DNA from: Fimbriimonadaceae bacterium
GTDB lineage: Bacteria > Armatimonadota > Fimbriimonadia > Fimbriimonadales > Fimbriimonadaceae
Assembly (NCBI GenBank): GCA_019638835.1
Contig: JAHBTC010000011.1
Location: forward strand, 1-42,792
Reading direction: 5' to 3'
Length of the DNA stretch: 42,792 bases
Shown here piece after piece: positions 1,455 to 21,743 of the stretch (the first letter of the stretch is position 1; each line of letters starts with the position of its first letter). The notes under the pieces were generated by a model. That model saw nothing but the letters and a program-made list of their open reading frames with translations, made no database searches and was not told where the DNA came from. The position numbers and the translations under genes are program-made.

Positions 1455-1472
1455 CCCTCCAAACGTCGATTT

Positions 1473-1486
1473 ACGAAACGTTTCTC
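1473..1486 (+). promoter_or_regulatory. LacI-type operator, site B (autoregulatory)
   Basis: The plus strand reads ACGAAACGTTTCTC, the reverse complement of GAGAAACGTTTCGT, with a perfect GAAACGTTTC palindrome at 1475-1484. It lies just downstream of the TATAAT box, within the expected leader of the regulator mRNA. That fits roadblock-type autorepression of the operon. Confidence 0.7.
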
Positions 1487-1496
1487 ACGCAACGAA

Positions 1497-3377: not shown

Positions 3378-3399
3378 GACCCGTTAGACCGAGGACAAG

Positions 3400-3669
3400 A
3401 TGAAGAAAGAGATTCCGAAGTGGGCCGTAGTGACGGCAATCGTGGTTGCCGTGGCAATTGGGGGGTTCTTCCTCAATCGAGCCATCTCCGGCCCACCGGA
3501 ACTCCCGGCGCCGAAAATCAAGGTCCAGCAAGAGATCCCCGATCACTTGAAGGGACGTCTCGACCCGGAGACAGAAGCCCAAATCAGGGAGCAAACGCAG
3601 AAGTATGGGGAGATTGATCCTAATGCGGCACCTGCACCAAGCCCTTCGAACGGACCTCCTGGTGGATAA
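3400..3669 (+). CDS. Small single-pass membrane protein of unknown function
   Basis: The protein has 89 residues: a basic start (MKKEIPK), one membrane helix at about residues 8-28 (WAVVTAIVVAVAIGGFFLN), then a Pro-, Glu- and Gln-rich extracytoplasmic tail ending in Pro/Gly/Ser repeats. The start follows a purine-rich stretch (GAGGACAAG, 3390-3398). It lies 22 bases after the pseudopilin gene and 15 bases before the transporter fusion, so it is surely co-transcribed. It may be an accessory anchor for the pseudopilin or the transporter. I recognise no family. Confidence 0.75.
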   Translation: MKKEIPKWAVVTAIVVAVAIGGFFLNRAISGPPELPAPKIKVQQEIPDHLKGRLDPETEAQIREQTQKYGEIDPNAAPAPSPSNGPPGG

Positions 3670-3684
3670 GTTGAGTTCGTAGAC

Positions 3685-6090
3685 GTGAGGTCGACGTTGA
3701 AGCGACTGGTGACTTGCGCGTGCCTTCTCCTAGCGGCGGTGGCATCACGCGGGACCACGACTCCCATCGAATTGAGAATCGTGGTGTGGGACGGCGACGA
3801 GAGTCTTCGTGTCCTACGTCGGGTCGCGAATGACTTTGAGCAAGCCCACCCAGGAATCAAGGTCAAGTTAGAAAACGTCGACTACCGCTACTTCTTCCAA
3901 AGGCTTTTGTCGCAGGTTGCAGGCAACACTGCGCCGGACATTGCGATGCTCGATCCGCAGAACATGCAAATGTTTGCAAAGCGGGGAGCGCTCATGCCCC
4001 TGAACCCGCTCATCAACCAAACGGATGGGTTTCGATTGGCGGAGTACTACGAACCGATTGTTGATGTGTTTCGCTATCAATCTGATCTATATGTACTCCC
4101 CAGAGATATCGCCCCGATCGGCTTGATTTATTACAACAAACGCATGTTTACCGAAGCGGGCTTGGACCAACCAGACGGTAACTGGACCTGGGATTATGAG
4201 CCTCGCCCTGAACTCGGTAGTCAGTGCTTCACCTACTGCATGCAGCAGTTGACTAGAAAGGGCGACAGCAGTCGCTCGACCGTGTGGGGATTTGCGCCTT
4301 CTTGGACTGGCGCATTCACCGATACCGTCGCATTTTCGTCCGGGGCTCGATATGTGAACGATCCTCAGGCATTTGAATCTCTCAACTTCACCGATCCAAG
4401 GATCATACGGGCGTTTGACTTCGTGGCAAGCCTCGCGAATGAGAAAAAATGGATGCCAAGCCAGACGGAGTTGAGTTCAGTCGCTCAGACGACTGCCGTG
4501 GATCTCTTTATCTCCCAACGGGTCGCGATGTACCAATGCGGCATCTGGGACGTTCCCCACATACGCCAAGCCCTGAAACCTGGAAGCGATAGGTTTTTTG
4601 AATGGGATATCACTCTGGCACCCGGTCACATTGATCCGACGACGGGAGAAGTCGTGCGGGAGGCACCCTCCGGAGGTTCAGGCTACGCGATACTAAACTC
4701 AACTCCTCATCCCGATGCGGCCTGGAAACTTGTGCAATGGATGGCAGGAGAGCCAGGAATGAAGGCGATGGCCAAAGCGGGCATTGCCCAACCCGCAATC
4801 AAACGCCTTGCTCAAGGACCGGACTGGATCCCTGGTGAAAGTACTTCCCTTGAGCAACGCTATCCCGCGAACCGCATCGCGACTGACCAAGCAGTGCCCT
4901 TTGCAGTATTCCCTCCAACGGCTGAATATTGGGGTGAAGTTAGCGGCCTCGTGTTTTCGAAGACTGAACCGATCTATCTCGGCACTTCTACGGCTGAAAT
5001 GGCCCTGACCGAGGGGAATCGCATTGCTTCCACGCGCCTTAGCAAGATTCTTGAAGAAGAGCGACTTCCCCAGTTTGATTGGCGTTGGGGAGGAGCCGTC
5101 GGTTTCCTCCTCCTGTTTGCCGCAATCGCTTGGGTTTATTATCCTGAGCGGGGCAAAAAACGAACTCAATCTGAGCGGGCCGAGACTCGAGCGAGTCTCT
5201 GGTTTCTGTCTCCTTGGATCATCGGAACGTTAGCATTCACGGTCGGCCCGATGATCTTCTCTCTCTTGATGAGTTTCACGAACTGGGACATCATTCAGGC
5301 CGCTGAATGGCGCTCGCTGGGCAACTATCAAGAGGCATTCGTCCAGGACTCGCGGTTCTGGAACACGGTCAAGGTAACGGCTGTGTATACGATTTTCAGC
5401 GTTCCTCTCGGATTGATCGCATCCTTGGCGTTGGCTTTGCTCCTCAATGTTCGAGTCAAGGGAATGCCGATCTACCGCACCTTCTTCTATCTTCCCGTTT
5501 TAGCAAGCGCAGTGGCTTCGTCTCTCATTTGGCGCAAAGTATTTCAACCAGAAGGTGGACTCCTGAACGTGATGCTCTTTGGTCGTGACGGTCAACGAGA
5601 TCCGTTCGGGCTAACGGGCTGGCTCGGACTCAATGGTCAACTTCCGAATTGGCTCGGGGACGAAAAGTTGGCTCTGCCATCCTTGATCATCATGAGCCTG
5701 TGGGCAGTCGGTGGCGGGATGGTCATCCTCCTCGCCGGACTCCAAGCGATTCCCGACTTCTACTACGAAGCGGCGACTTTGGACGGTGCCGGGCTATGGC
5801 AGAAGTTCCGGGTGGTCACTTTGCCGATGGTTTCGCCGGCTCTCTTCTTCACCCTCATCACTGGCGTAATCGGGAGCCTTCAAGTTTTTACTCAAGCATT
5901 TGTGATGACTCAAGGCGGCCCAAATGATGCAACCCGGTTCTACATGCTCCATTTATATGAGAACTCCTTTGGCAACCTACGGATGGGCTATGCATCCGCA
6001 CTCGGGTGGCTCCTTTTCCTTGTTGTATTTGTGATCACGAAGATTCAGTGGCGGCTGAACAAATACGTTTACTACGAGGGGGCCGCATGA
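3685..6090 (+). CDS. Sugar ABC transporter: solute-binding protein fused to MalF-type permease
   Basis: The protein has 801 residues in one uninterrupted frame starting at GTG. Residues 1-25 are a signal sequence or anchor. About 26-455 form a family 1 carbohydrate-binding protein (ELRIVVWDGDESLRVLRRVA, APDIAMLDPQNMQMFAKRG, and AAWKLVQWMAG near its end). A membrane helix at about 466-483 leads to a basic cytoplasmic stretch (PERGKKRTQ). From about 500 to the end it is a CUT1 permease, with the EAA loop YYEAATLDGAGLWQKFRVV at about residue 692, which contacts the ATPase. Separate MalE and MalF proteins are the rule, so this one-chain version is unusual. It overlaps the MalG-type gene by ATGA, which also argues for a real fusion and not a frameshift artefact. 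The substrate is probably an oligosaccharide or beta-glycoside, judged from the GH1 gene downstream. Confidence 0.92.
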   Translation: MRSTLKRLVTCACLLLAAVASRGTTTPIELRIVVWDGDESLRVLRRVANDFEQAHPGIKVKLENVDYRYFFQRLLSQVAGNTAPDIAMLDPQNMQMFAKRGALMPLNPLINQTDGFRLAEYYEPIVDVFRYQSDLYVLPRDIAPIGLIYYNKRMFTEAGLDQPDGNWTWDYEPRPELGSQCFTYCMQQLTRKGDSSRSTVWGFAPSWTGAFTDTVAFSSGARYVNDPQAFESLNFTDPRIIRAFDFVASLANEKKWMPSQTELSSVAQTTAVDLFISQRVAMYQCGIWDVPHIRQALKPGSDRFFEWDITLAPGHIDPTTGEVVREAPSGGSGYAILNSTPHPDAAWKLVQWMAGEPGMKAMAKAGIAQPAIKRLAQGPDWIPGESTSLEQRYPANRIATDQAVPFAVFPPTAEYWGEVSGLVFSKTEPIYLGTSTAEMALTEGNRIASTRLSKILEEERLPQFDWRWGGAVGFLLLFAAIAWVYYPERGKKRTQSERAETRASLWFLSPWIIGTLAFTVGPMIFSLLMSFTNWDIIQAAEWRSLGNYQEAFVQDSRFWNTVKVTAVYTIFSVPLGLIASLALALLLNVRVKGMPIYRTFFYLPVLASAVASSLIWRKVFQPEGGLLNVMLFGRDGQRDPFGLTGWLGLNGQLPNWLGDEKLALPSLIIMSLWAVGGGMVILLAGLQAIPDFYYEAATLDGAGLWQKFRVVTLPMVSPALFFTLITGVIGSLQVFTQAFVMTQGGPNDATRFYMLHLYENSFGNLRMGYASALGWLLFLVVFVITKIQWRLNKYVYYEGAA

Positions 6091-6929
6091 AGAAAGGAGT
6101 CGGCACGAGGGTTGGCAAAATCGTAGTGGCAGTCTTACTTGCAGTAGGTTGTCTCGTCTTCCTCTTACCTTTCTACACCTCGCTCGCAATGTCTCTGAAG
6201 ACACCTGAAGAACTAGCGACTACGGCGGCGTGGAGTTGGCCGCGGAACAGTACGTTCAATAACTATCGAGAAGTGCTCACCAACCCAAACGTCAACTTCC
6301 TTCGACTGTTTTGGAATACGGTGGTCATCGCGTCATTGGCTACCGCAGGCGTGATTCTCAGTTCTAGCCTCGTTGCCTATGCCTTCGCAAAAATGAGATT
6401 CTTGGGGAGAGACCGACTGTTTGTCGTTCTTCTCAGCACGATGATGTTGCCCGCCATCGTGACGATGATTCCCACCTACTACCTGTTCAAGGAACTTCGG
6501 TGGATCAATACCATCCTGCCTCTCACGGTACCGGCGTTCTTTGGCGGAGGGGCATTCAACATCTTTCTGCTTCGCCAGTTTTTCATGGGGATTCCGAAGG
6601 AACTCGATGAAGCCGCGAAGATTGAAGGCGCGGGCCATTGGACGATTTACTCACGCATCCTTATGCCCCTTTCAGGTTCCGCGCTAGCGACCGTTGGGAT
6701 CTTCTGCTTCATCTACAACTGGCGAGACTTTATGGGGCCGCTGATTTACTTGAACGAGCCTGAGAAACAGACGCTCGAACTAGGGTTGGCGACCTACAAC
6801 TCCTTACGTGCCGAGCAATGGCACCTTCTGATGGCGGGCAGCGTCCTCGTAACCCTGCCACTCATCGTGATTTTCCTCTTTGGACAACGCTACTTCGTCA
6901 AGGGAATGGCCTTGACCGGATTGAAATGA
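6087..6929 (+). CDS. Sugar ABC transporter permease, MalG type
   Basis: The protein has 280 residues, normal for CUT1 inner-membrane permeases, with about six membrane helices. The EAA loop DEAAKIEGAGHWTIYSRILM contacts the ATPase. The C-terminal FGQRYFVKGMALTGLK is the classic MalG/LacG ending. The ATG at 6087 overlaps the stop of the fusion gene (ATGA) and avoids the longer in-frame extension from 6006. It partners the permease half of the upstream fusion. No ATP-binding subunit is encoded in the operon. Confidence 0.95.
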   Translation: MKKGVGTRVGKIVVAVLLAVGCLVFLLPFYTSLAMSLKTPEELATTAAWSWPRNSTFNNYREVLTNPNVNFLRLFWNTVVIASLATAGVILSSSLVAYAFAKMRFLGRDRLFVVLLSTMMLPAIVTMIPTYYLFKELRWINTILPLTVPAFFGGGAFNIFLLRQFFMGIPKELDEAAKIEGAGHWTIYSRILMPLSGSALATVGIFCFIYNWRDFMGPLIYLNEPEKQTLELGLATYNSLRAEQWHLLMAGSVLVTLPLIVIFLFGQRYFVKGMALTGLK

Positions 6930-6943
6930 ATACGGAGAACAAC

Positions 6944-8359
6944 ATGAAATTCAAGAACGACTTCGTTTGGGGTGCGGCGACCGCCGCGTACCAAATTGAA
7001 GGTGCCGCAAGAACTGGCGGGCGTGGACCGTCTGTGTGGGACGCCTTCTGCCAGCGACCGGGTGCTGTTGTCAATGGCGACACAGGGGACATAGCGTGCG
7101 ATCATTACCACCGGTATCAGGAAGACATTGAATTGATGAGGTCGCTAAACATCGCGGCTTATCGATTCTCGGTTTCATGGTCTCGCGTGCTTCCCGAAGG
7201 TGTGGGCCGCCCGAACCTCGCGGGTCTCGACTTTTATGATCGGCTGATTGACGGACTATTGGAGGCAGGTATTGAACCGTATGCAACTCTGTTCCACTGG
7301 GATTTCCCTCAGGAACTCTATCTGCGAGGAGGCTGGCTCAATCGTGATTCCGTGGAGTGGTTTGGCGAGTACGCGTCTCTGCTCGGTGAACGATACGGAG
7401 ACCGCGTCAAGAACTGGTGGACTCTGAACGAGCCTCCGTGCTTCCTCGGATTAGGTCATGTAACGGGTACACACGCGCCTGGACTGAAGCTTGACTACCG
7501 AGATTTCCTCGTCGCGGCAAAGCACGCCATGATGGCCCACGGTCGCTCGGTACAAGCGCTCAGGACGACGGTTGAGGGCCCCTGCGCGATCGGATACGTC
7601 CCCATCAGCCACGTCGGAATTCCGGTGGACGAATCACGAGAGAACATTGAAGCGGCGCGTCAGTTTACATTCGGCACCCCATCACCCGATCGAAGCTTCT
7701 GGTTCGCTCGTCTGTATCTGGACCCGGTGGTTCTCGGCGAATGGCCCGAGGAGTGCATAAGGGTTCTGACGCCTAACGGTCCAAAGGTTTCCGCCGAAGA
7801 TCTCGCTTTGATGAACCAACCGATTGATCGCCTGGGTTTGAACTTCTACACGGCACCCTACATTCGAATGGCCGAGAACGGTGAACCGGAAATCGTGCAA
7901 CTTCCTCAAGGGCATCCTCACAGCGCCTTTGATTGGCCCATGACCCCCGAAGGACTGTACTGGTCCGTTCGTTTCCACGAGGAGCGCTATGGATTGCCAA
8001 TGATGATCACCGAGAACGGGCTTTCTTGCCGAGATTGGGTGTCGGAGGACGGACTGGTCCACGACCCCCAACGAATAGACTATCTATCACGCCACCTAAA
8101 GCAACTTCAACGCGCCGACGCCGAGGGATATCAGATTGATGGATTCTTCCACTGGTCTCTGCTTGACAACTTTGAGTGGGCGGAAGGCTACCGCCATCGC
8201 TTTGGGATGGTTCACGTTGATTACGAGACCCAGGTGCGAACCCCCAAAGACTCGGCATTCTGGTACCGCGATCTCATCGCAAAAAACGGGTTCTCCAGAA
8301 GCGAAGAATCTGGTTCGCGAGCCGTTGTCCATAGTTACCATCAGGCAAACGTGACTTAA
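6944..8359 (+). CDS. GH1 beta-glucosidase / beta-glycosidase
   Basis: The protein has 471 residues, the usual GH1 size. It starts in the canonical way (FKNDFVWGAATAAYQIEGA). The acid/base Glu163 is in WWTLNEP, the nucleophile Glu357 in MMITENGLS, and the C-terminal WSLLDNFEWAEGYRHRFGMV is the aglycone-site signature. There is no signal peptide, so it acts in the cytoplasm on imported beta-linked disaccharides or oligosaccharides. The ATG at 6944 has a GGAG six bases upstream; an alternative ATG at 6926 would overlap the permease stop by ATGA and add six residues. It is the last gene of the LacI-headed operon. The final 20 residues or so are Ser- and His-rich and not conserved in the family. 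Confidence 0.95.
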   Translation: MKFKNDFVWGAATAAYQIEGAARTGGRGPSVWDAFCQRPGAVVNGDTGDIACDHYHRYQEDIELMRSLNIAAYRFSVSWSRVLPEGVGRPNLAGLDFYDRLIDGLLEAGIEPYATLFHWDFPQELYLRGGWLNRDSVEWFGEYASLLGERYGDRVKNWWTLNEPPCFLGLGHVTGTHAPGLKLDYRDFLVAAKHAMMAHGRSVQALRTTVEGPCAIGYVPISHVGIPVDESRENIEAARQFTFGTPSPDRSFWFARLYLDPVVLGEWPEECIRVLTPNGPKVSAEDLALMNQPIDRLGLNFYTAPYIRMAENGEPEIVQLPQGHPHSAFDWPMTPEGLYWSVRFHEERYGLPMMITENGLSCRDWVSEDGLVHDPQRIDYLSRHLKQLQRADAEGYQIDGFFHWSLLDNFEWAEGYRHRFGMVHVDYETQVRTPKDSAFWYRDLIAKNGFSRSEESGSRAVVHSYHQANVT

Positions 8360-8422
8360 GACTCATTCAGAAGCTAGTTCCAAGTGATTTTTGGTGAATT
8401 GCTGTACACTGTTGGCAGGTTT

Positions 8423-8448
8423 GAGAAACGTTTCGCGAATCGTTTCTC
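8423..8448 (+). promoter_or_regulatory. Double LacI-type operator, sites C1 and C2
   Basis: Two copies of the 14-bp site in inverted orientation overlap by two bases: C1 GAGAAACGTTTCGC (8423-8436) and C2 GCGAATCGTTTCTC (8435-8448). The whole 26 bp is a near-perfect palindrome (24 of 26 positions) with outer arms GAGAAACG and CGTTTCTC. It lies 31 bases before the PEP-CTERM start codon. A tetrameric or paired-dimer LacI repressor could bind here, so the PEP-CTERM gene would have its own sugar-controlled promoter. Confidence 0.75.
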
Positions 8449-8479
8449 ATTCAACAACCTCACTGGAGAGATTCAATCA

Positions 8480-9229
8480 ATGAAGAAAGCATTTGCCCGA
8501 ATCGCCGTGCTTGCACTGGGAGCCACAATGGCTTCGTTCGCAACGGCGAGCCTCTCACCCTATAGCCAGAACTTCGAAGGTCTCAACGCTGCAGACGGTG
8601 CCGCCCTCACCAACGACGGCTGGCTCGTGTTTGCAAACGTCTTCGATTCAAGCAACAACTACCTGTACGGCTACGGCCCCTTCGGCGCACCGAACGGCGG
8701 TCCCGGCTTTTCCTCCATCGCCACCGGCGAAGGTGGACCAAACCAAGCCCAGCAATACCTGAACGCCTACAGTGACTACAACAACGGCGACCATGGGCTC
8801 GGCCGCATCATCGAAGCGAACGTATTCCAAGAACAGGTGATTGGCGCGGGTGATCTTGGCATGACTTACAACTTCACCTTCGATTACAAGGCTTCCTTCC
8901 AGAGTGGTCCGGCTGGCTCAACGACCACCTTTGCCTTCATCAAGGTACTCAATCCGAACAACGGATACAGCCTAGAGGCTTTCCCGACTTTGGAGACGAC
9001 GGCGGCTTCAACCACGGTCTGGTCGGAAGGTAATACGATCAGCATTACGATCGACAACGCGTGGACCGACCATTTGCTTCAGTTCGGCTTCCTCAGCAAC
9101 GCGACAAACTTCGAACCGTCAGGTGTTTACTACGACAACATCAACTTCGCCGCTGTGCCGGAGCCGTTCTCAATGATCGCGTTCGGTGCTGGACTCGTTG
9201 CTCTTGCCCGTAAGCGCAAGCGAAACTAA
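8480..9229 (+). CDS. PEP-CTERM sorted extracellular protein, sugar regulon
   Basis: The protein has 249 residues. A signal peptide (MKKAFARIAVLALGATMASFATA) comes first, then a beta-rich, Asn/Gly/Tyr-rich body reminiscent of a jelly-roll binding domain (YSQNFEGLNAADGAALTNDG ... GVYYDNINF). It ends with a PEP-CTERM tail: VPEP, a hydrophobic helix and the basic end ARKRKRN. Such proteins are cleaved and sorted by exosortase and usually end up in exopolysaccharide. The start has GGAGAG nine bases upstream. The double operator in front ties it to the glycoside operon, so it may bind the same glycan; that is inference. A strong terminator follows at 9256. Confidence 0.9.
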   Translation: MKKAFARIAVLALGATMASFATASLSPYSQNFEGLNAADGAALTNDGWLVFANVFDSSNNYLYGYGPFGAPNGGPGFSSIATGEGGPNQAQQYLNAYSDYNNGDHGLGRIIEANVFQEQVIGAGDLGMTYNFTFDYKASFQSGPAGSTTTFAFIKVLNPNNGYSLEAFPTLETTAASTTVWSEGNTISITIDNAWTDHLLQFGFLSNATNFEPSGVYYDNINFAAVPEPFSMIAFGAGLVALARKRKRN

Positions 9230-9233
9230 TCTC

Positions 9234-9286
9234 GTCGCTGGTTTCCTCTCGATCGCCGGGCCGCTTCCTTTGGGAAGCGGCCCGGT
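9234..9286 (+). repeat. 53-bp dispersed repeat, copy 1
   Basis: This block is identical base for base to 14655-14707. It starts with GTCGCTGGTTTCCTCTCGAT and contains the terminator hairpin. Both copies lie just behind PEP-CTERM genes, but sequence outside the block is not shared. Confidence 0.9.
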
Positions 9287-9289
9287 TTT
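9256..9289 (+). terminator. Rho-independent terminator of the PEP-CTERM gene
   Basis: A 13-bp perfect stem (CCGGGCCGCTTCC / GGAAGCGGCCCGG) with a TTTG loop is followed by TTTT. It is the strongest terminator in the window and closes the sugar regulon. Confidence 0.92.
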
Positions 9290-9429
9290 GATTCTTGCAA
9301 CCAGATATGTTGGTGTTCGAGTTACGATTATCTTCGTCTAAGCCTCCAATACGGTCTGCGGCAAACAGAATCCAGTCAGCAATAGGTGCCTCATAAGCAT
9401 GGTGAAAATCAAGCGTCAACGCCCCTCAC

Positions 9430-10521
9430 TTACGGTAGAACGTACACCATTTTTCTTGGCAATCCCGGCACAGGAACCGTGTCCGCAAGTGCGCCAATGC
9501 TACCGTTTGCGTTGATGTGATACACCTGGATTTCCTGAGGAGTAGCGACGAGAACGAACAACCATTTTCCAAGGTTATCCGTACCTAAGGCTTCTACAGG
9601 CCCTCCAACTCCGACTAGTGGTCCTGATGAGCCGAACATACCTGACGAACTCGTAGAAACTGAGACCACGCCGTCGATGGCGTCACCGCCACAAAACACA
9701 GATCTTCCTAAAGGATCAGAAATGATAACCGAGAAGTCATTCGTAGTTAGATTTGTAGTCAACTGGTCAACAAGCGATGGCGGATTAGCGTTACTGATGG
9801 AGTATACGTTCTGGTCTGCAACCATAAATGTGAACAGTCCGGAAGAAGAAGGCGCAACATTGTCCGCTGAAACCGATGCAACGTACTCATCGCCGCTTGA
9901 GAGGACACCAGACGCATCAGGATGGCGAAACTGCACCCGACTCGTGAGGCCAAATCCAAATGAAACCAGATCTGATCCAGCGACTTGCAGTTGGGAAATT
10001 CCAACCGGATCTAAGGTGGGGATGTTGGCGATCGGAGGAACGAGAGGTGAGACCGTTTGATTCGGGTTGATCTGATACTGGTGAATAGGAGAACCGTTGA
10101 TGCCATTCAACTCACTCACGTATAGTTTGTCGGAGACATGGGCAACGCGGAACGGCGTGGTACTGCCCATGTTGAATTGTGTCATCACGGGCGATCCAAG
10201 TTGACCACCAAAGATTCGATTAAATCCAACAATCTGACGACCTTGATTGTCTACGGCAAACAAGCGAGCGTTGGCTTGATCCCACGTGATATCCGAGAAC
10301 TGAATATTGGAAGCATATGGACTGTTCGGCATCGCTAGCAGTGCTCCCGTCGTTGGATCGAAGGTATATCCTGCGATTCCACCGTTGCTCCCGAGAGACA
10401 CGTATATGCCCGTGATCTGGGAAGTGGGGAGTGTAATCGGCCCTCCTGAGCCCCCACACCCAAGAATCACCGCCGCAAAGGAACCGAAGAGACAGAATCG
10501 GAAGTTCGCAAACTTTCGCAT
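9430..10521 (-). CDS. Secreted lipoprotein with lactonase-like beta-propeller repeats
   Basis: The protein has 363 residues. The signal peptide ends in AAVILGCGG, a good lipobox. Repeating blades follow, of the type GIYVSLGSNGGIAGYTFDPT, NARLFAVDNQGRQIVGFNRI and KWLFVLVATPQEIQVYHINA. These resemble seven-bladed lactonase (YbhE/PF10282-like) propellers, although no enzymatic residues can be assigned. The gene diverges from the BTAD regulator. Its upstream region has the 11-bp-period GTCAC repeat, so it is a likely target of that regulator. The mRNA leader would be very short. Confidence 0.85.
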   Translation of the reverse strand: MRKFANFRFCLFGSFAAVILGCGGSGGPITLPTSQITGIYVSLGSNGGIAGYTFDPTTGALLAMPNSPYASNIQFSDITWDQANARLFAVDNQGRQIVGFNRIFGGQLGSPVMTQFNMGSTTPFRVAHVSDKLYVSELNGINGSPIHQYQINPNQTVSPLVPPIANIPTLDPVGISQLQVAGSDLVSFGFGLTSRVQFRHPDASGVLSSGDEYVASVSADNVAPSSSGLFTFMVADQNVYSISNANPPSLVDQLTTNLTTNDFSVIISDPLGRSVFCGGDAIDGVVSVSTSSSGMFGSSGPLVGVGGPVEALGTDNLGKWLFVLVATPQEIQVYHINANGSIGALADTVPVPGLPRKMVYVLP

Positions 10522-10544
10522 TGCCGTAGTGTCTCATGTGCCCT

Positions 10545-10560
10545 GTGACCAAAGTGTGAC
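10545..10560 (-). promoter_or_regulatory. GTCAC direct repeat, 11-bp period (SARP-type site 2)
   Basis: Read on the minus strand: GTCACACTTTGGTCAC, with repeats starting exactly 11 bases apart. It is 23 bases before the lipoprotein start codon. The same pattern is found before 13795 and before the gene ending at 30672. Confidence 0.65.
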
Positions 10561-10707
10561 GGGCAAGACAGCCTCCCATCTCGTCCACTTCTCAATTTCG
10601 AGCCTTAACCCAATACCTGTTGAGGAAAGTAGTACTACGAGCACATTCTTGAGTTTGACTCCGAGCCAACAGTTGCCAGATCTAGTCTCGCGAGGCTAAA
10701 ATGAGGT

Positions 10708-13700
10708 ATGGCGCAGCCTCAACTTCGCACCGCAACGACAGTTTGGCGCGCTAAGTTGTTCGGAAAGTTCGAGTTTTCACGAGATGGCGTACCCCTGCCA
10801 CCACTTCGCTCGGCAAAGACCGCCGATCTTCTTGCTGTTCTAACGCTACAACTGGGTCACAATTTAAGCAAATTGACTCTAGCGGAGGAGTTCTGGCCTG
10901 ACACAGAAGAACATAAGCAATCACAAAACCTTCGACAGTGCCTTGCATCTATCACAGCCGCTCTGGAGGAACCTGGAGTCTTGATCAGTGGACGTGGATT
11001 CATTGAGCTATCGCACGATCATGTTGCCACCGATCTCCAGGACTTCGATTACTTTGCTTCGCACTATGGTGACCTCAAAGGAGAGTTTCGACAAAGGGCA
11101 CTAGAGAGTGCGTTCGCGCTTGTCACGGGACCGTTACTTAAAGACCATGATCACCCAATCATCATTCCAGAGAGATTGCGTGTAGAAGAGTCCTACGCGA
11201 CGGTTACTCTCGACTTCATAAAGCATCTTATCGGCGAAGGCGATCCACGCAAAGCCGCGCAGGTGGGACGGCGAGCTCTGACAATATCCCCTGAGCGTGA
11301 GGATATTCATATCGGCTTGATCGAAGCATATGGTGCCGCGGAGCTCACGAGTGAGGCGCTGAAGCAGTTTGAATTTCTAGAGCAAATGCTCGATGAGCAT
11401 TGGGGAGAGTCGCCAAGTGACGCCGCTCGGCAGGCCCTCGAACGTCTACCGACCCCATCACATGCAAGGCGGGATCCATCAAATCACATTCCTAAACCAG
11501 TTCAAAGGATTTACATACGCGGGCGAAGAGAAGAGTTAGACTTTCTTACCAACTATTGTCAGCAACGTAACAATGGCTTTCTTCTTACACTTTGCGGGGC
11601 AGGCGGTTCTGGAAAGACAACAATCGCGCATGCACTCAAAGAACGACTAGGATTTCCGAAAGACTTCTACTTTGTTGAGCTAGCCGATCTACGTGACTCG
11701 CAACTGATCGCAAGCAGAACATTGGCGGCCATTGGGCTGGCCGCTTCAGATGGACCCGCGGCCATGAGTTCACTCGCCAATGCGATAAGTAATAGCGGAG
11801 TACTTGTATTAGATAATGCCGAGCATCTCTCCGAAGGTGTCGCGGCATTCGTTCAGGAGCTACTTGCTTTGAACTCAGAAGTCAGGATCATTGTAACTTC
11901 AAGAGTTGCACTGGAACTGCCAGCTGAGATCCTTGTTCCTATTGGAGCACTGCCCATGCCCGATGTTGAGCAAAGTCTTGCCCAGCTACAATCTAATCCT
12001 TGCATTGAACTCTTCGTCAGGCAATCTCAACTCCTTCGCTCAACATTTCGGTTAAGGCCGGAAAACGCTCGAGCCACTATTCAAATCTGTCAAAGACTCG
12101 AAGGAATGCCTCTGGCCATAGAACTGGCTGCGGCGCAAACGACGGTCTACTCTCCTGCTCAGATTGCCAGCCGTTTGGAGAAAGGCATTCTCTCATTAGA
12201 ATCGACACAAAGGGCAAGACTTGAACGTCACCGTTCAGTTGAGAGATCAGTTTCTTGGAGCTTTGACCTCCTTTCTGACGAGCAGAAAGAAGCTCTATGT
12301 CGTCTATCAGTCTTTCGTGGCACATTCTCCGTTGATGCCGCAGAAGCAATCTTGACCGATCTAGAAGCCGCACCCCTGCTCTCTGCCTTATCTCGATCTT
12401 CACTTCTTGAGCGTCGCGACTCTGCCAAAGAAGTGCGGTTTGCGCTTTTGGTTCCAATCCGGCTATTTGCGCTAGCTAAGCTTCAAGAATTCGGCTTGGA
12501 GAGACAGACCAGAGACGCTCTACATGATTTTGCTTGCTATCTTTCTGACCGTCTCAAATGGGAGTTCAATGGATCTAATCCAAGGGAAGCAATCGATCAG
12601 ACTGAGGCTGATTTCGAGATATTTCGTACCGCATTCGAAGATCGGTCATCAGATCCGAATAAAGAAGCCGAAAAGATTAGAATGGTGGGCGACTTAGCTG
12701 CGTTCTTCGGAGCACGCGGGCTCCCTAGTGCAGCGTTCAAAAATCTTTACGACCGATTCTCTGCAATCCGGGACAACCTAGAGCCTCCCAATTTTGTTCG
12801 AGCCTCTTATGGGGCGGCAATTGCTACCTTGTTTCAACAAAACTTTGTTCGTGCTACAGAGATTTTGGACAAGTCTATAGAAGACTTGCGCGCGAACGAT
12901 ACTGTTGACCGTGCTGGCTTGATCAACCTGCGACTTTTGGCAAATATTATGTCTCCGACCCACTTGACATGTGAGTCGGACAATCTTAGGATGATTGGCC
13001 TTGGCAGAGAAGCACTTTCCAACATTGTCGGCATAACCAACGTTTCGTATTGGTCACCCGAGCTATTGCGAGTAACGTTGTTGAGTAATATCGCATCCAC
13101 TTATAGAAGGATGGATCGTCCTGAAGAGGCGTTGGATGCTGTGCAAAACGCAATAGCTCTAGGTCAAGGAGTTATCCCCAAGCGTACTTATTGTTTTTTG
13201 ACTCTTAGCGTTGCCGATATTAACATGGACCTTGGCCGTCTCGATGAGGCATGGATCGCGTGCATGGAGGCGATTAGAGCATTTGAGGATGCCGGATTCG
13301 ATGAGCCAGCAAGGCAAGCTCGGGGCACGGCCATGACGATCGCAGTTCGCCAAGGCAGAATCGAAGATGCTTGGAACTCGCTTCAAGCCGTGTTTGAGTC
13401 AGGCTACTTTTTTGACCGGGATCGAGTTTTCCGGGATCACTTGGTCGGTCTCGCAATCGTCGTAGCTGCCGCAGGAAATGAAGAGCTAAGTCTTGAACTG
13501 GTTAGGCTTGCTACACGTGCGGGATTCGTACGACAGGATTGGCACCGAGTCAATCAGCCCGAGATCGGAGTCCTCTTGCCCGTACTAAAGGAAATCACGG
13601 TGCCTGGAGAAGTAACCGCCGAGGAAGTCCGTAGACTTTATGAACAGGTTTGCCATTACATGGAGCGACGGTTCCGGAAAGAAAGTGATCCCGAAACGGC

Positions 13701-13710
13701 CAGCCAATAA
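10708..13710 (+). CDS. BTAD/SARP-type transcriptional regulator with STAND-like NTPase and repeat-rich C-terminus (AfsR-like)
   Basis: The protein has 1000 residues. About 12-110 form a short winged-helix DNA-binding domain (AKLFGKFEFSRDGVPLPPLR ... LAEEFWPD ... LRQCLASI). About 111-250 are the bacterial transcriptional activator domain with TPR-like helices (SPEREDIHIGLIEAYGA). An ATPase domain follows, with Walker A GAGGSGKTT (297-305), Walker B GVLVLDNAEHL (364-374) and EGMPLAIELAAA further on. The remainder is helical and TPR-like (EEALDAVQNAIALGQ). This is the layout of AfsR-like regulators, which bind direct repeats and switch with nucleotide state. No sensor or receiver domain is present. 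The two flanking genes and the lipoprotein operon at 28818-30672 carry the putative binding motif. Confidence 0.92.
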   Translation: MAQPQLRTATTVWRAKLFGKFEFSRDGVPLPPLRSAKTADLLAVLTLQLGHNLSKLTLAEEFWPDTEEHKQSQNLRQCLASITAALEEPGVLISGRGFIELSHDHVATDLQDFDYFASHYGDLKGEFRQRALESAFALVTGPLLKDHDHPIIIPERLRVEESYATVTLDFIKHLIGEGDPRKAAQVGRRALTISPEREDIHIGLIEAYGAAELTSEALKQFEFLEQMLDEHWGESPSDAARQALERLPTPSHARRDPSNHIPKPVQRIYIRGRREELDFLTNYCQQRNNGFLLTLCGAGGSGKTTIAHALKERLGFPKDFYFVELADLRDSQLIASRTLAAIGLAASDGPAAMSSLANAISNSGVLVLDNAEHLSEGVAAFVQELLALNSEVRIIVTSRVALELPAEILVPIGALPMPDVEQSLAQLQSNPCIELFVRQSQLLRSTFRLRPENARATIQICQRLEGMPLAIELAAAQTTVYSPAQIASRLEKGILSLESTQRARLERHRSVERSVSWSFDLLSDEQKEALCRLSVFRGTFSVDAAEAILTDLEAAPLLSALSRSSLLERRDSAKEVRFALLVPIRLFALAKLQEFGLERQTRDALHDFACYLSDRLKWEFNGSNPREAIDQTEADFEIFRTAFEDRSSDPNKEAEKIRMVGDLAAFFGARGLPSAAFKNLYDRFSAIRDNLEPPNFVRASYGAAIATLFQQNFVRATEILDKSIEDLRANDTVDRAGLINLRLLANIMSPTHLTCESDNLRMIGLGREALSNIVGITNVSYWSPELLRVTLLSNIASTYRRMDRPEEALDAVQNAIALGQGVIPKRTYCFLTLSVADINMDLGRLDEAWIACMEAIRAFEDAGFDEPARQARGTAMTIAVRQGRIEDAWNSLQAVFESGYFFDRDRVFRDHLVGLAIVVAAAGNEELSLELVRLATRAGFVRQDWHRVNQPEIGVLLPVLKEITVPGEVTAEEVRRLYEQVCHYMERRFRKESDPETASQ

Positions 13711-13733
13711 GCGAACTGGATCTTGACTTGTTC

Positions 13734-13749
13734 GTCACACTTTCGTCAC
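13734..13749 (+). promoter_or_regulatory. GTCAC direct repeat, 11-bp period (SARP-type site 1)
   Basis: The sequence is GTCACACTTTCGTCAC, with the repeats at 13734 and 13745. It is 45 bases before the PEP-CTERM start, in the short gap after the regulator gene, so that gene probably has its own activated promoter. Confidence 0.65.
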
Positions 13750-13794
13750 GCAGAGTGCGAGATCATCTCACCAGCCACATGGCTTGAGAGAAAA

Positions 13795-14628
13795 ATGATG
13801 AGACTCAACATCCGCCTCGTTTTAGTTGCCCTAACCGTAACCACGGTTTCCGCTATTGCAACTCCAGCAACTGGGGACAAATGGACCGTAGCCGGGTGGC
13901 CCCAGTTTGACGGCACTTGGCTGTTTGACCATACCGAAGGCACGTCGGGCCTCACGAACCCGAGGTCGCTCAAGATCGGAGGGAATGTTGCAAGTCTAAT
14001 GCTTTCCGGAATGGATTATGATAGTCAGGGCCGGTTACTCGCCATTACTTCCTCTGGATTCTATGAGGTCGCTCCAACAACCGGAGAACTGACCCTGCGC
14101 GGTGCATTTGGAGTTGGAATTGAAGGAGCTGCCAGTTACGATCCGGTGGGAAACCGCTTCCTTATAGCGGCGGGATTTGGGGGCATCGAAGAAGTAGATC
14201 TGGTGAACTTCAATCGTAATCTGATCAGCCCACTTACCGGAATCGACGACGTTTCCGGGATTGCCGTTGGATCAAACGGTCAAATTTGGATACTGGCGTC
14301 CAACACAAACTCAAGCAGTATCGCGGAGCTCTATGAACTTCAGGGAAATACACCTGTTAGTTACGGCTTACTTGGAATTCCTGTATCGGGGGCAATCGCT
14401 GGTTTCGACGTAGACTCTAACGGTGAGTTAACACTAACCAGTGGCAACTCGCTATATCGTGTAAATCCAGTCTTTGGTACTCCAACGGTTTCGATGGTCA
14501 GTTCTCTCGCTGGACCGTCCGACTACAGTGGCCTTACGTTCAATGCTGTTCCAGAACCGTCATTTGGATTACTGGCTGCGCTGGTCCTCATGCCATTGAT
14601 TCGCCGTCGCCACAAATTGGCCATTTGA
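13795..14628 (+). CDS. PEP-CTERM sorted, beta-propeller-like extracellular protein
   Basis: The protein has 277 residues. A signal peptide (MMRLNIRLVLVALTVTTVSA) is followed by propeller-like repeats (MDYDSQGRLLAITSSGFYEV, GIAVGSNGQIWILASNTN, GFDVDSNGELTLTSGNSLYR). It ends in a PEP-CTERM tail (VPEP, hydrophobic helix, RRRHK). A GAGAG lies four bases before the first ATG and seven before the second at 13798, so either start is possible. The longer form from 13723 is unlikely because its added residues would precede the signal peptide and run over the SARP-type site. Likely activated by the BTAD regulator next door. Function unknown beyond the surface location. Confidence 0.88.
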   Translation: MMRLNIRLVLVALTVTTVSAIATPATGDKWTVAGWPQFDGTWLFDHTEGTSGLTNPRSLKIGGNVASLMLSGMDYDSQGRLLAITSSGFYEVAPTTGELTLRGAFGVGIEGAASYDPVGNRFLIAAGFGGIEEVDLVNFNRNLISPLTGIDDVSGIAVGSNGQIWILASNTNSSSIAELYELQGNTPVSYGLLGIPVSGAIAGFDVDSNGELTLTSGNSLYRVNPVFGTPTVSMVSSLAGPSDYSGLTFNAVPEPSFGLLAALVLMPLIRRRHKLAI

Positions 14629-15645
14629 TTACTTGCTTGGAACTGTCAGCGCGAGTCGCTGGTTTCCTCTCGATCGCCGGGCCGCTTCCTTTGGGAAGCG
14701 GCCCGGTATTGAGTTTTGGCGGCGAAGCATTTTCACTAAGAATCGTTCAACTGCACATGTGAATTCCGCCGAAACGCGTTCAAGAATCTCTGCAGGCGAT
14801 TCCGAAGACGCCCCACCTCGCCGATTCGAGCCCGCATTCCATCGTCCGCCGTATGCGGGATCAACTGCCGCCATATCGATAAGTCGGAGCGTAAACCCGG
14901 CCGGGGCCGCCTTTGTCAGGCGCATCTTTAGTTCCGTTCGCCCTGGCAACTCGCGGCAGGGAAAGGCCATCGCTACCGCCCAGGAATCACTCACCAAAGC
15001 CCCCAAGAGTTCGCTCTCGATTTTCGATTCAAGTTCAAGACAGCACAACTCTCCGATTTTCACAGCACTCGGCAAAACAGCGACTGCCGCCTCACGATTA
15101 CGCTTGCGGATATCCATCCATTCGATGGCTTTTCTGTCCAAGGGTTTGCCCCTCTCCAACCTCTCTAAGCAATCAAATGAGAATCTGAGGCTACGCTCAT
15201 CTTGGATCGACTGCAGTAGATCGGCAATATGGTTTTCTTCTCCCGTGTGATCCGCTGCGATGACCGCCTCTTCATACATCGCCTTGGGCTCTAGTTTCCC
15301 CGTAACGATCCCAGCAGAGAGAATGCTATCGCAGTCCGTATGGTTCACAACTGCCAGTGGCGCAATACCCTTCTCTTGCACGAAGAGACAAGCAAGGTTC
15401 CCGCTACTTACGAACCTTTCCCAGACTGAATCCGGCCCGTGATGGTCGACATTTTGAATCCGTTCAAACTCATAACCATAAGGTCGAAGTTCGGCCCTCG
15501 CAATATCCCTGAAAGAGAAATCACAGGCAACGATCGGTTCATCGGGGAACAAGTCGGCTACTGAAGCAAGGCAGGGTCCCGTAGTCTCTTTGATCAGTGC
15601 GACTCGATCGATGTAACACTCTAAGTGCTCTTGATTCGCTCTCAC
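14629..15645 (-). CDS. DHH-like phosphoesterase-related protein with unusual motif order
   Basis: The protein has 338 residues and starts at GTG with GGAG seven bases upstream. It has NVDHHGPDS at 66-73 and NHTDCDSILSAG at 101-112, with AADHTGEENH at 130-139. H-x-D-x-D-S/G and DHH are the metal-binding motifs of the DHH phosphoesterase superfamily, but there the HxDxD motif comes first. The C-terminal GGRWNAGSNRRGG recalls the glycine-rich DHHA1 end. The last 26 residues or so are encoded by the antisense strand of the 53-bp terminator repeat, and the stop codon abuts that of the PEP-CTERM gene. The native C-terminus was probably altered. No signal peptide is seen, so it is cytoplasmic. The activity is unknown; the DHH link is inferred from motifs alone. 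Confidence 0.7.
   Translation of the reverse strand: MRANQEHLECYIDRVALIKETTGPCLASVADLFPDEPIVACDFSFRDIARAELRPYGYEFERIQNVDHHGPDSVWERFVSSGNLACLFVQEKGIAPLAVVNHTDCDSILSAGIVTGKLEPKAMYEEAVIAADHTGEENHIADLLQSIQDERSLRFSFDCLERLERGKPLDRKAIEWMDIRKRNREAAVAVLPSAVKIGELCCLELESKIESELLGALVSDSWAVAMAFPCRELPGRTELKMRLTKAAPAGFTLRLIDMAAVDPAYGGRWNAGSNRRGGASSESPAEILERVSAEFTCAVERFLVKMLRRQNSIPGRFPKEAARRSRGNQRLALTVPSK
14655..14707 (+). repeat. 53-bp dispersed repeat, copy 2
   Basis: Identical to 9234-9286. Here it lies inside the 3' end of the convergent DHH-like gene and behind the second PEP-CTERM gene. Confidence 0.9.
14677..14706 (+). terminator. Terminator hairpin of the second PEP-CTERM gene
   Basis: It has the same 13-bp stem and TTTG loop as the hairpin at 9256. 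It is followed by TATTGAGTTTT, so the U-tract is weaker than in copy 1. Confidence 0.75.
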
Positions 15646-17034: not shown

Positions 17035-18042
17035 ATGACACGACGCTGCTTTGCCGCTATCGCCGCCACTCTCACGACGGCACTGCTCTTTGTCGGATGC
17101 ACCCCGACCAACGAAGCTCCCACTGCATCCCTCGAACCAACTTCGAACACCGCAACTCCTGCCGAACCGACAAAGAAACTGGTAATCGGTTTCAGCCAGA
17201 TCGGTGCCGAAAGCGGGTGGCGCACGGCGAACACGAAGTCCATCCAGGACGAAGCCAAGAAAAGGGGCCACGACCTCAAGTTCAGCGACGCTCAAGGCGA
17301 CCAGGAGAACCAAATTAAGGCGATCCGCTCCTTCATCGCGCAGGGTGTGGATGTGATCGCCTTTGCCCCGGTAGTTGAAACTGGATGGGGGCCCGTATTG
17401 AAAGAAGCTAAGGCCGCTGGGATCCCGGTGATCTGTTCCGATCGGTCGCCAACCTTCGCCGACGATCTCTTCGTCACGTTCATCGGTTCCGATTTCGTGA
17501 AGGAAGGAGAGATGGCCGCCGAGTGGATGCTCAAGAACGTAAAAGGTCCGGTGAAGATTGCCGAACTCACCGGTACTCCCGGTTCCGCACCGGCCAACGA
17601 CCGTGCGGCAGGATTCCGTGCGATCATCAAAGACAACCCCGACTACAGCATCGTCTTTAGCCAAACGGGTGAGTTTGAGCGTGCAAAAGGCAAAGCCGTC
17701 GCCGAAGCCCTTCTAAAAGGGGAATTCAAAGACGTCAACGTAATCTTTGCGCACAACGACGACATGGCACTCGGAGCAATCCAGGCAATCGAAGAAGCCG
17801 GCAAGGTGCCAGGAAAGGACATCATCATCATCTCAATTGATGGTGTCCACGATGCATTCGTAGCCATGTCAGAAGGCAAACTGAACTGCAGCGTCGAATG
17901 TAATCCACTTCTTGGTCCACTCATCATGGACGCATGCGAGAAAGCAGTGGCCGGCATTGAACAACCGCGACGTATCCTGATGGAAGACCAGGTCTACGAC
18001 ACGACGAACGCGGCCGCTGCTCTTCCCGACCGCAAGTACTGA
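17035..18042 (+). CDS. ytfQ: Galactofuranose-type ABC transporter substrate-binding lipoprotein YtfQ
   Basis: The protein has 335 residues. The signal ends in lipobox LFVGC (Cys22), followed by a Thr/Pro/Ala-rich linker. The mature part closely follows E. coli YtfQ: VIGFSQIGAESGWRTANT, QENQIKAIRSFIAQGVDVIA, FAPVVETGWGPVLKEAKAAG and AHNDDMALGAIQAIEEAG. E. coli YtfQ binds galactofuranose. The enterobacterial protein is a soluble periplasmic form, whereas this one is lipid-anchored. The order ytfQ-ytfR-ytfT-yjfF is the same as in E. coli. The Shine-Dalgarno sequence is weak. A 20-bp palindrome upstream is a candidate operator. Confidence 0.93.
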   Translation: MTRRCFAAIAATLTTALLFVGCTPTNEAPTASLEPTSNTATPAEPTKKLVIGFSQIGAESGWRTANTKSIQDEAKKRGHDLKFSDAQGDQENQIKAIRSFIAQGVDVIAFAPVVETGWGPVLKEAKAAGIPVICSDRSPTFADDLFVTFIGSDFVKEGEMAAEWMLKNVKGPVKIAELTGTPGSAPANDRAAGFRAIIKDNPDYSIVFSQTGEFERAKGKAVAEALLKGEFKDVNVIFAHNDDMALGAIQAIEEAGKVPGKDIIIISIDGVHDAFVAMSEGKLNCSVECNPLLGPLIMDACEKAVAGIEQPRRILMEDQVYDTTNAAAALPDRKY

Positions 18043-19551: not shown

Positions 19552-20558
19552 AGTCGATGCCCTCGTGGATCTACGCTTTGGGTGCACTCATTTTCGTGCT
19601 CCTTTTCAACGCCTTCGCGACACCAGGATTCTTTGAAATCAATGTTCTAGATGGTCGATTGTTCGGAAGCGTGATCGATATCCTAAACCGGGTCGCGCCG
19701 GTTGCATTACTCAGCTTAGGGATGACCCTCGTGATTGCCACCCGTGGGGTGGATCTGAGTGTCGGCGCAGTGATGGCCATGAGCGGAGCGGTGGCGGCGA
19801 GTCTCATCGCCCGCCCGGAAGGCAATATTCTCCTTGGCCTCAACTTTGGCGACTCCGTCTTTCTCATTGTGTTAGCCGGCCTCGTGACAGGGTTGCTTTG
19901 CGGACTATTCAATGGCCTGCTCGTAAGCCGAGCCCGCATCCAACCGATCGTTGCCACTCTGCTATTGATGGTTGCGGGAAGAGGGGTAGCCCAACTCATC
20001 TCGGACGGACAAATCATCACATTTTCGGCGCCGGCGTTTGCTTCCATCGCTCGGGGTGCCACGCTTGGGATGCCAAATCCGTTCTGGATTGTGGTGCTGT
20101 TTGCCGCGGTAATTCTCGTCCTCACGCGGTGGACTGCCCTTGGACTCTTCATCGAATCCCTTGGTTCAAATCCGATTGCCGCCCGCAACGTCGGCATCAA
20201 CACCGGTGCTCTCCTTCTGTTTGTTTACTCGGTAACCGGAGTCTGTGCGGGGATGGCTGGGATGATTGCCGCCGCTGATATTCAAGGCGCAGACGCCAAC
20301 AATGCGGGTCTCTATCTGGAACTGGATGCGATCCTCGCAGTCAGTGTGGGCGGAACTTTGCTTTCTGGCGGTCGATTCTCCCTCGTGGGAACGCTCATCG
20401 GAGCGATTCTGATGCAGACCCTGACAACAACCATCCTCACCCGAGGGGTAGCTCCCGAACTCACCCTAGTCGTGAAGGCTCTCGTTGTCCTCGCCGTGTG
20501 TCTCCTTCAGTCACCGACGTTCTTGCATATGCTCCGCCCGAAAAAGGTGGCGGCATGA
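19548..20558 (+). CDS. ytfT: Galactofuranose-type ABC transporter permease YtfT
   Basis: The protein has 336 residues with eight or more hydrophobic helices and the CUT2 permease signatures TLVIATRGVDLSVGAVMAMS and LDAILAVSVGGTLLSGGRFS. The ATG overlaps the ytfR stop. It pairs with YjfF, encoded next with another ATGA overlap, to form the membrane channel. Confidence 0.95.
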   Translation: MKSMPSWIYALGALIFVLLFNAFATPGFFEINVLDGRLFGSVIDILNRVAPVALLSLGMTLVIATRGVDLSVGAVMAMSGAVAASLIARPEGNILLGLNFGDSVFLIVLAGLVTGLLCGLFNGLLVSRARIQPIVATLLLMVAGRGVAQLISDGQIITFSAPAFASIARGATLGMPNPFWIVVLFAAVILVLTRWTALGLFIESLGSNPIAARNVGINTGALLLFVYSVTGVCAGMAGMIAAADIQGADANNAGLYLELDAILAVSVGGTLLSGGRFSLVGTLIGAILMQTLTTTILTRGVAPELTLVVKALVVLAVCLLQSPTFLHMLRPKKVAA

Positions 20559-21550
20559 ACCGTTTCCTTAGTCAGGAGCGTTTGCCAGTGCTGATCACCT
20601 CTGTCGTGGCCATTGCGATGTTCCTGATTGCTGGTTTCAAGTACGACAACTTCCTCACCCTTCGCGTCTTCTTCAATCTCTTTTCGGACAATGCGTTTCT
20701 TGGCATTGTCGCCGTCGGCCTTACCTTTGTAATCCTGACGGGCGGCATCGACCTTTCGGTTGGGTCAATGGTGGGTTGCAGTTCAATCATGCTGGCTACA
20801 TTGATACGCGACAGCCAGGTCGCACCGCCCCTTGCGGTCGGAATCGTGTTGGCTTTCGGCTGTCTAATCGGACTCACCCAAGGATTTCTCATCGCCCGCT
20901 TTGAACTGCAACCATTTCTTGTCACGCTTGCGGGGCTCTTCCTTTGCCGAGGAATTGCTCTCCGTATTAGCCAGCAGTCGGTCCAGATTGACCATCCGTT
21001 GTTTGATCAGTGGGCAAGCTTCTCTATCGCTCTCCCCCAAAAGTCTTCGCTTTCATTCGCAGCCCTTTTGCTCTTTCTGGTGGTGGGGATAGGATGGTAT
21101 CTTTCGCGCCTTAGACCCTTTGGTCGTGCGATCTACGCCATCGGCGGGAACCGTCAGTCCGCCGAACTGATGGGCGTTCCGGTGCGGAAGACGCTCATCG
21201 GTGCCTACGTCATCAGCGGAATCTGTGCCGCGCTCGGAGGAGTTGTCTTTACTCTGTACACGCAGAGCGGAAATGCCGTCTCTGGCACGGGGCTGGAGTT
21301 AGACGCGATTGCCGCAGTGGTGATTGGCGGCACGCTATTACGGGGAGGATATGGTTCGGTACCGGGTTCTCTTCTCGGGGTTTGCGTTTTGGGCATCGTT
21401 CAAACCGCGATTACATTTGACGGCACCCTCAGTTCGTGGTGGACAAAGATCGTGATCGGCGTCTTGCTCCTTGGCTTCCTCCTCCTGCAACGCTGGATTG
21501 AATCGGCAGCACTCTCTCGCCGCGCCTTGGCCCCCAGTGGGACCAACTAA
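20555..21550 (+). CDS. yjfF: Galactofuranose-type ABC transporter permease YjfF
   Basis: The protein has 331 residues from the ATG at 20555, which overlaps the ytfT stop; this equals the length of E. coli YjfF. CUT2 signatures are FVILTGGIDLSVGSMVGCSS and LDAIAAVVIGGTLLRGGYGS. An in-frame start at 20498 would lie inside ytfT and add a hydrophilic leader, so it is rejected. It is the last gene of the importer operon. Confidence 0.95.
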   Translation: MNRFLSQERLPVLITSVVAIAMFLIAGFKYDNFLTLRVFFNLFSDNAFLGIVAVGLTFVILTGGIDLSVGSMVGCSSIMLATLIRDSQVAPPLAVGIVLAFGCLIGLTQGFLIARFELQPFLVTLAGLFLCRGIALRISQQSVQIDHPLFDQWASFSIALPQKSSLSFAALLLFLVVGIGWYLSRLRPFGRAIYAIGGNRQSAELMGVPVRKTLIGAYVISGICAALGGVVFTLYTQSGNAVSGTGLELDAIAAVVIGGTLLRGGYGSVPGSLLGVCVLGIVQTAITFDGTLSSWWTKIVIGVLLLGFLLLQRWIESAALSRRALAPSGTN

Positions 21551-21593
21551 GCCAAGCATATTGGAAACGAACGGGACCGACAGAACGATTACT

Positions 21594-21743
21594 CAGGTTC
21601 AAAATTTGCGAATGTGAAGTAGGTCACCAAGAACCTGTTACCTGCGCGGATCAGTTCTCTCGGGCGTGTCTTACGATGAAGACAGACCTCGTGAGCGGGG
21701 AGTACCGCAGCGAAAGTCTAGGGATGGTTGGATCCGCAACCCA
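21594..21743 (+). ncRNA. Candidate structured RNA or structured 3' UTR behind yjfF
   Basis: Tandem hairpins can be seen: CAGGTTC (21594) pairs with GAACCTG (21631); TGTCTT/AAGACA closes a six-base loop (21667-21684); GCGG/CCGC closes GGAGTA (21695-21708); GGTTG/CAACC closes GATCCG (21726-21741). A strong terminator follows directly. No open reading frame of interest and no known RNA family signature was recognised. It could be an independent small RNA or the tail of the importer mRNA. Confidence 0.4.

Follow-up and report, generated by a model that had tools for sequence, protein, structure and literature searches.

The window analyzed here is a stretch of 42,792 nucleotides (positions 1 to 42,792 of contig JAHBTC010000011.1, forward strand) from the draft genome of a Fimbriimonadaceae bacterium (assembly GCA_019638835.1; 2,742,185 bases in 207 contigs, 97.84% complete). 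Our analysis focuses on a 53-bp sequence that occurs twice in this window, each time behind a gene whose product ends in a PEP-CTERM tail; these genes are called A and B, and the repeat copies behind them copy A and copy B. Together, the two copies bracket a block of three genes. The features concerned are the following, with lengths of gene products in amino acids (aa):

8480..9229, + strand: PEP-CTERM gene A, 249 aa, kept with its upstream neighbours in the genus mates G001 and G002
9234..9286, + strand: repeat copy A, leader and terminator hairpin behind gene A; stem at 9255-9286, 14 pairs, tail TTTGATTCTT
9287..9297, + strand: tail after copy A, matching 14708-14718 at 8 of 11 positions
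9287..14654, no strand: block between the copies, three genes; a 5421-bp unit when one copy is included
9430..10521, - strand: lipoprotein-like gene, 363 aa, lipobox recognized by eye; no match in the stretches compared from ten relatives
10708..13710, + strand: SARP-type regulator, 1000 aa, with BTAD, AAA and TPR regions; a single match (33%, in G017) in the stretches compared from ten relatives
13795..14628, + strand: PEP-CTERM gene B, 277 aa; 4 of the 291 phylum genomes, the own one included, have a match at E<=1e-12
14655..14707, + strand: repeat copy B, the same 53 bp behind gene B; stem at 14676-14707, 14 pairs, tail ATTGAGTTTT
14629..15645, - strand: convergent open reading frame (ORF), 338 aa, DHH-like by eye, no Pfam match; residues ~313-331 antisense to copy B

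The repeat pair and the two PEP-CTERM genes

The two copies are identical at 53 of 53 positions, as the initial annotation had stated, and the identity indeed includes sequence ahead of the hairpin: each copy consists of a 21-base leader followed by a GC-rich 14-pair stem with a 4-base loop. Allowing up to three mismatches reveals no third place in the window, and the largest match count in 100 dinucleotide shuffles of it was zero. Without gaps, the match can be extended to 64 bp at 95% identity. Because 1.5% of T-rich 11-mers match as well as these additional 11 bases do, the tail is ambiguous as an extension of the repeat. Apart from it the flanks differ, again in agreement with the initial annotation; when 30 or 100 bases next to the copies are aligned locally, on either side, the scores do not exceed those of shuffles.

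In both copies the stem is directly followed by a T-rich tract, which is poorer in T behind copy B, and both lie just 3' of a gene: copy A begins 4 bases after the stop codon of gene A and copy B 26 bases after that of gene B. The 87-base stretches containing them are predicted to fold about 5 standard deviations (sd) more stably than shuffles, and the 53-bp repeat itself folds at -32.6 kcal/mol. To judge from the sequence, each copy is most likely an ordinary working intrinsic terminator on the + strand. Overall, the terminator scan reports 11 sites versus 8.4 (sd 3.5) in shuffles, and only the two 14-pair stems are distinctive. A comparison of the repeat with Rfam gave a single match (16.8 versus a gathering score of 44 bits, E 0.77), which lies far below threshold and was disregarded.

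The genes had been described as dissimilar except for their PEP-CTERM tails. The dissimilarity stands: in the own genome a search with protein B (E<=1e-4) matched only itself, protein B is absent from the 14 own-genome matches of protein A, and in these comparisons the two proteins do not appear as detectable homologs. The common tail is less certain, since that of protein B is weak; it was assigned by eye (VPEP, a hydrophobic stretch, RRR) and is missing from the own-genome list for the TIGR02595 profile even at E<=10. Besides the present genome, the four with gene B comprise three of other genera. A search of 61 genomes at E<=1e-4 brings in G024, with a weak match, and neither G001 nor G002 has any. 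Within 20 kb around the closest homolog (56-59%, G104), no other gene of the window was matched and the downstream sequence is different.

Gene order behind gene A and the bracketed block

The genus mates G001 and G002, which share about 95% identity in the flanks, were compared with the window by means of 40-kb stretches around gene A. Positions 2-9223 are collinear with both, i.e. synteny reaches the last codons of gene A and ends just before copy A; collinearity resumes at 37.3-41.6 kb. Between these collinear anchors the window has 28 kb; the corresponding intervals are about 9.2 kb long in G001 and 16.5 kb long in G002. Among the interval genes compared, just four sugar-transport genes (17.0-21.6 kb) match the G001 and G002 stretches at E<=1e-8, and these matches are distant (27-33%) and at other positions there. 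The menD gene, at 25.5-27.1 kb of the window, is found at 2.57 Mb in G001, where gene A lies at 0.66 Mb. Because collinearity breaks behind gene A, and the sizes and contents of the intervals differ, this place is, on the evidence of gene order, a point of rearrangement and gene-content change. As would be expected of an insertion, synteny breaks at the anchor, and genes foreign to G001 and G002 lie beyond it.

Besides gene B, the lipoprotein-like gene and the SARP-type regulator are also unmatched in the 40 kb compared from each of the two mates; for the regulator, the comparison covered stretches of ten relatives. No recombinase is found among the three block genes (Pfam, NCBIfam). Their GC content at third codon positions (GC3) is 0.46-0.50, that of the seven genes on their left 0.58-0.69, and the drop from 0.69 occurs between gene A and the block. 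A separate observation concerns the regulator: three of the four SARP-type matches in the stretches examined are no more than about 2.5 kb away from a PEP-CTERM tail (window 10708-14628; L061:17800-20000; L061:4521-6178), and the two genes possibly form a recurring pair.

Copy A is intergenic, whereas copy B overlaps the 3' end of the convergent ORF. Stand-alone homologs of this ORF in G108 and G103 stop near its residue 300; the frame here extends about 38 codons beyond their ends, through copy B, and its tail also matches the antisense of copy A. The ORF thus seems to have lost its stop near the edge of copy B, which would fit a junction at this point. The gene was found in four of 113 genomes, namely the own genome and three of other genera; at E<=1e-4, neither G001 nor G002 gives a match. 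In G017, the homolog (L057, G017:C8) continues into a long extra region, HD/RelA-like by eye, and possibly represents a domain fusion.

G001 and G002 also carry a terminator behind gene A, whose stem has GGCCGCTTC in common with copy A. Of 1000 shuffles, 39 and 7 reach the local-alignment score between the repeat and these terminators, so the similarity may be taken as a suggestive, not a strong, sign of the ancestry of copy A. Copy A is probably the ancestral and copy B the derived one, because the mates have a weakly similar terminator at this place and possess neither gene B nor the convergent gene. Both mates are without the block at this place and also without the DNA to the right of copy B.

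A comparison of G002 with G001 provides a parallel. In the interval behind gene A, duplicated host segments of G002 enclose a PEP-CTERM gene and a SARP-type regulator, which G001 lacks at this position: 17613-17745 is repeated at 20630-20762 (90%) and 20284-20637 at 21375-21728 (86%), in coordinates of the joined stretches L061 and L062 (L061:17613-20000, L062:1-1728). For this regulator, Trans_reg_C and BTAD score just below their cut-offs and the GTG start was chosen by hand; the PEP-CTERM tail was recognized by eye. The added genes lie about 1 kb downstream of the terminator of gene A, not at the terminator. Hence, added genes with duplicated edges do occur in a relative close to this place. 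Since the two SARP proteins are unrelated by detectable similarity, the G002 case is an analogy that involves a different cassette.

We consider it slightly better than an even chance that the two copies go back to one intrinsic terminator and are a recombination scar from the addition of a block. According to this model, copy A would at first have ended the transcription of gene A. A block with the SARP-type regulator and gene B would have joined behind gene A, and the far end of this block would have received a duplicate of the terminator, so that copy B would have originated with the insertion; it would now end the transcription of gene B while overlapping the 3' end of the convergent gene. 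The joining could have proceeded by homology, e.g. with donor DNA that carried the same terminator, anchored at one or both ends. As to the mechanism, homology-anchored insertion, ectopic copying and att-type (attachment-site) integration may all be candidates. The suggestion of the initial annotation that the pair is a trace of recombination thus gains support, short of proof, from a repeat that lies at the end of synteny and brackets gene B, which is absent from the mates, as well as two genes unmatched there.

The closest printed analogy may be homology-facilitated illegitimate recombination, which, according to an excerpt of PMC5361080, has been proposed for the additive acquisition of genes in effector-immunity arrays of Vibrio cholerae. 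As that excerpt describes them, genes are added there behind a conserved anchor, a stretch common to donor and host, which would correspond to the present case; the V. cholerae arrays, however, have the conserved upstream region of the incoming module as their anchor and keep ancestral genes downstream (PMC5361080). Here, the anchor would be a 53-bp terminator with no known donor. If the model is correct, the scar marks one gene-acquisition event and suggests how an acquired gene can bring a ready-made terminator, a point of modest importance.

Several observations weigh against such an addition. A donor with the repeat was not found in the relatives, the genome_contigs collection, the 291 phylum genomes or viral contigs, although it may belong to an unsampled lineage. 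The low GC3 does not end at copy B: the two genes that follow have 0.55 and 0.48, and low values of 0.51 and 0.54 return in two genes near 29-30 kb; copy B is therefore not a composition boundary, nor is the composition of the block unique. The similarity of copy A to the terminators of the mates is weak, as described above. Furthermore, the DNA after copy B differs from that after the terminator in G001 and G002, so that removal of the block does not recreate their arrangement, and more than one event is needed. The arrangement in G002 is more complex than a single target duplication, and its SARP protein has no detectable similarity to the one here. Finally, the repeat stems from a draft of 207 contigs, in which an assembly error is formally possible, and 53 bp is about a common word size in assembly.

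Alternative explanations and the repeat background

To place the pair in context, exact repeats of at least 28 bp were surveyed in 1,241,498 bases (45.3%) of the own genome. Seven pairs were found: two in an apparent tandem PEP-CTERM pair (L162), three belonging to a dispersed hairpin family, the present pair, and one at a tRNA-Ala gene. The sample is biased towards contigs with PEP-CTERM genes; as 18.1% of its bases lie no more than 3 kb from such a tail, finding two repeats close to PEP-CTERM genes is weak evidence. In the same survey, the one-contig genome G001 yielded 28 pairs of at least 28 bp in 400,000 bases (longest 212 bp), many of them pieces of a few local duplications, compared with two in 439,939 bases of the own genome. 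Isolated local repeats are rare in this draft, which may, given the far more numerous pairs in G001, understate repeats.

The most serious competitor, a real contender though clearly short of an even chance, is ectopic copying: the block was already present, and a terminator patch of 53-64 bp was copied from A to B over 5.4 kb by template switching or gene conversion. This is consistent with homology that is limited to the terminator, with no residual similarity outside it, and with the low-GC3 genes that flank copy B on both sides; moreover, a stable hairpin would be a plausible obstacle to a replication fork. On the other hand, an insertion accounts jointly for synteny ending at copy A and for the convergent ORF running on at copy B, and the sampled 45.3% contain no other terminator-like hairpin as a local exact pair of at least 28 bp.

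Rather improbable, in our view, is a site-specific integration of the 5.4-kb block, with the 53-bp terminator as attL and attR and an integrase that was lost or acted in trans. Integrative elements have attL/attR direct repeats at the 3' ends of tRNAs or genes, and the present pair resembles them in that a 3'-end feature is directly repeated on the two sides of a block with lower GC. Unlike such elements, the block has no recombinase gene, and an empty site with the same right flank was not found in G001 and G002; the target would be a terminator. In the sampled part, just one other exact repeat of at least 28 bp is both local and isolated: the last 49 bp of the tRNA-Ala gene, in direct orientation at L108:1032-1080 and 3202-3250 (contig C24). 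It brackets a 2.2-kb segment with a GC content of 0.52, compared with 0.57-0.58 around it, which contains a gene with a PTPS domain and a PEP-CTERM gene; the neighbouring gene of this segment is present in 15 of 61 genomes including the own, and absent from G001 and G002. A tRNA 3'-end repeat that brackets a segment is a classical integration signature, and this resemblance keeps the att-type explanation alive for the terminator pair. Against it, no recombinase was found among the three ORFs scanned in the tRNA-Ala segment either, and the two repeats are unrelated, as are the two segments.

A wider and quite speculative variant, to which we give little credence, is that small integrase-less cassettes with a PEP-CTERM gene, sometimes accompanied by a SARP-type regulator, spread within this lineage and insert behind the 3' ends of host transcription units by means of a recombinase acting in trans, and that the 53-bp pair is a target duplication. 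The targets, with the same low credence, would be a terminator here, the tRNA-Ala gene elsewhere in the genome, and perhaps the 3' end of a protein gene in G002. Were this true, it would help to explain the roughly 50 PEP-CTERM genes of the genome, many of which have their own terminator. Among the titles and abstract openings listed for open-licence literature, none deals with terminators of PEP-CTERM genes as a repeat, with a duplicated terminator as the scar of an insertion or with the spread of PEP-CTERM cassettes, which is weak evidence of absence.

It is very unlikely that gene A was duplicated in tandem together with its terminator and that the block later replaced the second gene. Two adjacent homologs of gene A do exist in G006 (G006:C4:431028-432485) and in G024 (G024:C287:19676-21185), the second of each pair in a longer open frame; a repeat search of the window, however, revealed no remnant of gene A beside copy B, and the upstream flanks of the copies are unrelated. 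Even less probable is an artefact of assembly. The length of the repeat would agree with it, but a false join at a common word would be expected to create one junction, not two full copies with four different flanks.

The search for further copies

The initial annotation had also proposed a dispersed, perhaps mobile, element similar to repetitive extragenic palindromic (REP) sequences, and further copies were therefore sought. Of the 12 matches that a 62-base query gave against the own genome, only these two are complete; each of the remaining ten either spans no more than 19 bases or corresponds to the reverse strand of the hairpin itself. No copy was found in 60 relatives (best match E 0.0156 over 18 bases), and exact 22-mer and 20-mer scans of genome_contigs, a collection that may omit records of this or very near genomes, returned nothing. 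Viral contigs contain no exact match to the hairpin or the leader. When up to three mismatches to the leader are allowed, the 291 phylum genomes offer 15 places outside the own genome, all with exactly three mismatches, compared with five for a reversed-pattern control, which differs from the leader in dinucleotides and so weakens this excess. At the 11 of these 15 places that were inspected, the next 40 bases fold no better than -17.2 kcal/mol, compared with the -32.6 kcal/mol of the 53-bp repeat, so none has a comparable hairpin behind it.

A different hairpin sequence, of 30 bases, served as a positive control and occurs in 10 places of the same assembly. Because this other family is detected, a dispersed family of the present repeat would have been visible, and its low count does not reflect blindness of the search. 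According to an excerpt of PMC12306157, REP sequences are extragenic, form palindromic stem-loops and occur in multiple copies per genome with a common motif. The present repeat, with its 14-pair stem in both copies, resembles REP and other dispersed palindromic repeats, as far as excerpts of PMC12306157 and PMC2267715 describe them, in being short, palindromic and located behind genes; it differs in having two copies only and in being a terminator that includes a non-palindromic leader. With two identical copies in the own genome, none in 60 relatives, no exact one in genome_contigs and, in the 290 other phylum genomes, no leader match with fewer than three mismatches, a REP-like or mobile terminator element is the least probable explanation of all and was rejected. 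The initial annotation had regarded a lack of further copies, combined with a homologous gene tail common to both, as pointing to simple gene duplication; further copies are lacking, but so is the common tail, and for this reason simple duplication is likewise unsupported.

Nor do the copies regularly accompany PEP-CTERM genes. TIGR02595, a short profile that also exceeds its cut-off in two of 14 control genomes, lists 55 places in the own genome, 52 of them over the cut-off. None of the 30 downstream regions examined among these carries the repeat: most have an unrelated hairpin of their own (by eye), a few pass directly into the next gene, and one (L089) comprises just 61 bases. Only L088 scored better than its shuffles (12 versus a maximum of 11), which we take as chance similarity between GC-rich sequences. 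For the remaining places, the search of the whole assembly gives no further copy. The idea that the repeat is a constant companion of PEP-CTERM genes was rejected on these grounds.

The hairpin family that served as control reads GGGTAGCCTCAACCCTGAGAGGGCTGAGGC followed by ATAAA or ATGAA and occurs, with at most one mismatch, in 10 places of the own genome (e.g. L228:25-54, L229:1501-1530). The flanks of its copies partly differ; some copies are 93 or 274 bp apart, and some have upstream sequence in common. In three stretches with members of this family, Rfam reports at gathering score just a tRNA, located away from the hairpin.

A further observation concerns the region upstream of gene A. The window contains two near-complementary 21-base sequences with GAAACGTTTC, at 1467-1487 and 8422-8442; by eye, the one lies just before the likely start of a LacI-like gene, the other before gene A, and similar sequences are recognizable upstream of the gene A homologs in G006 and G024. 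They possibly represent a putative LacI-family operator that ties gene A to a sugar operon.

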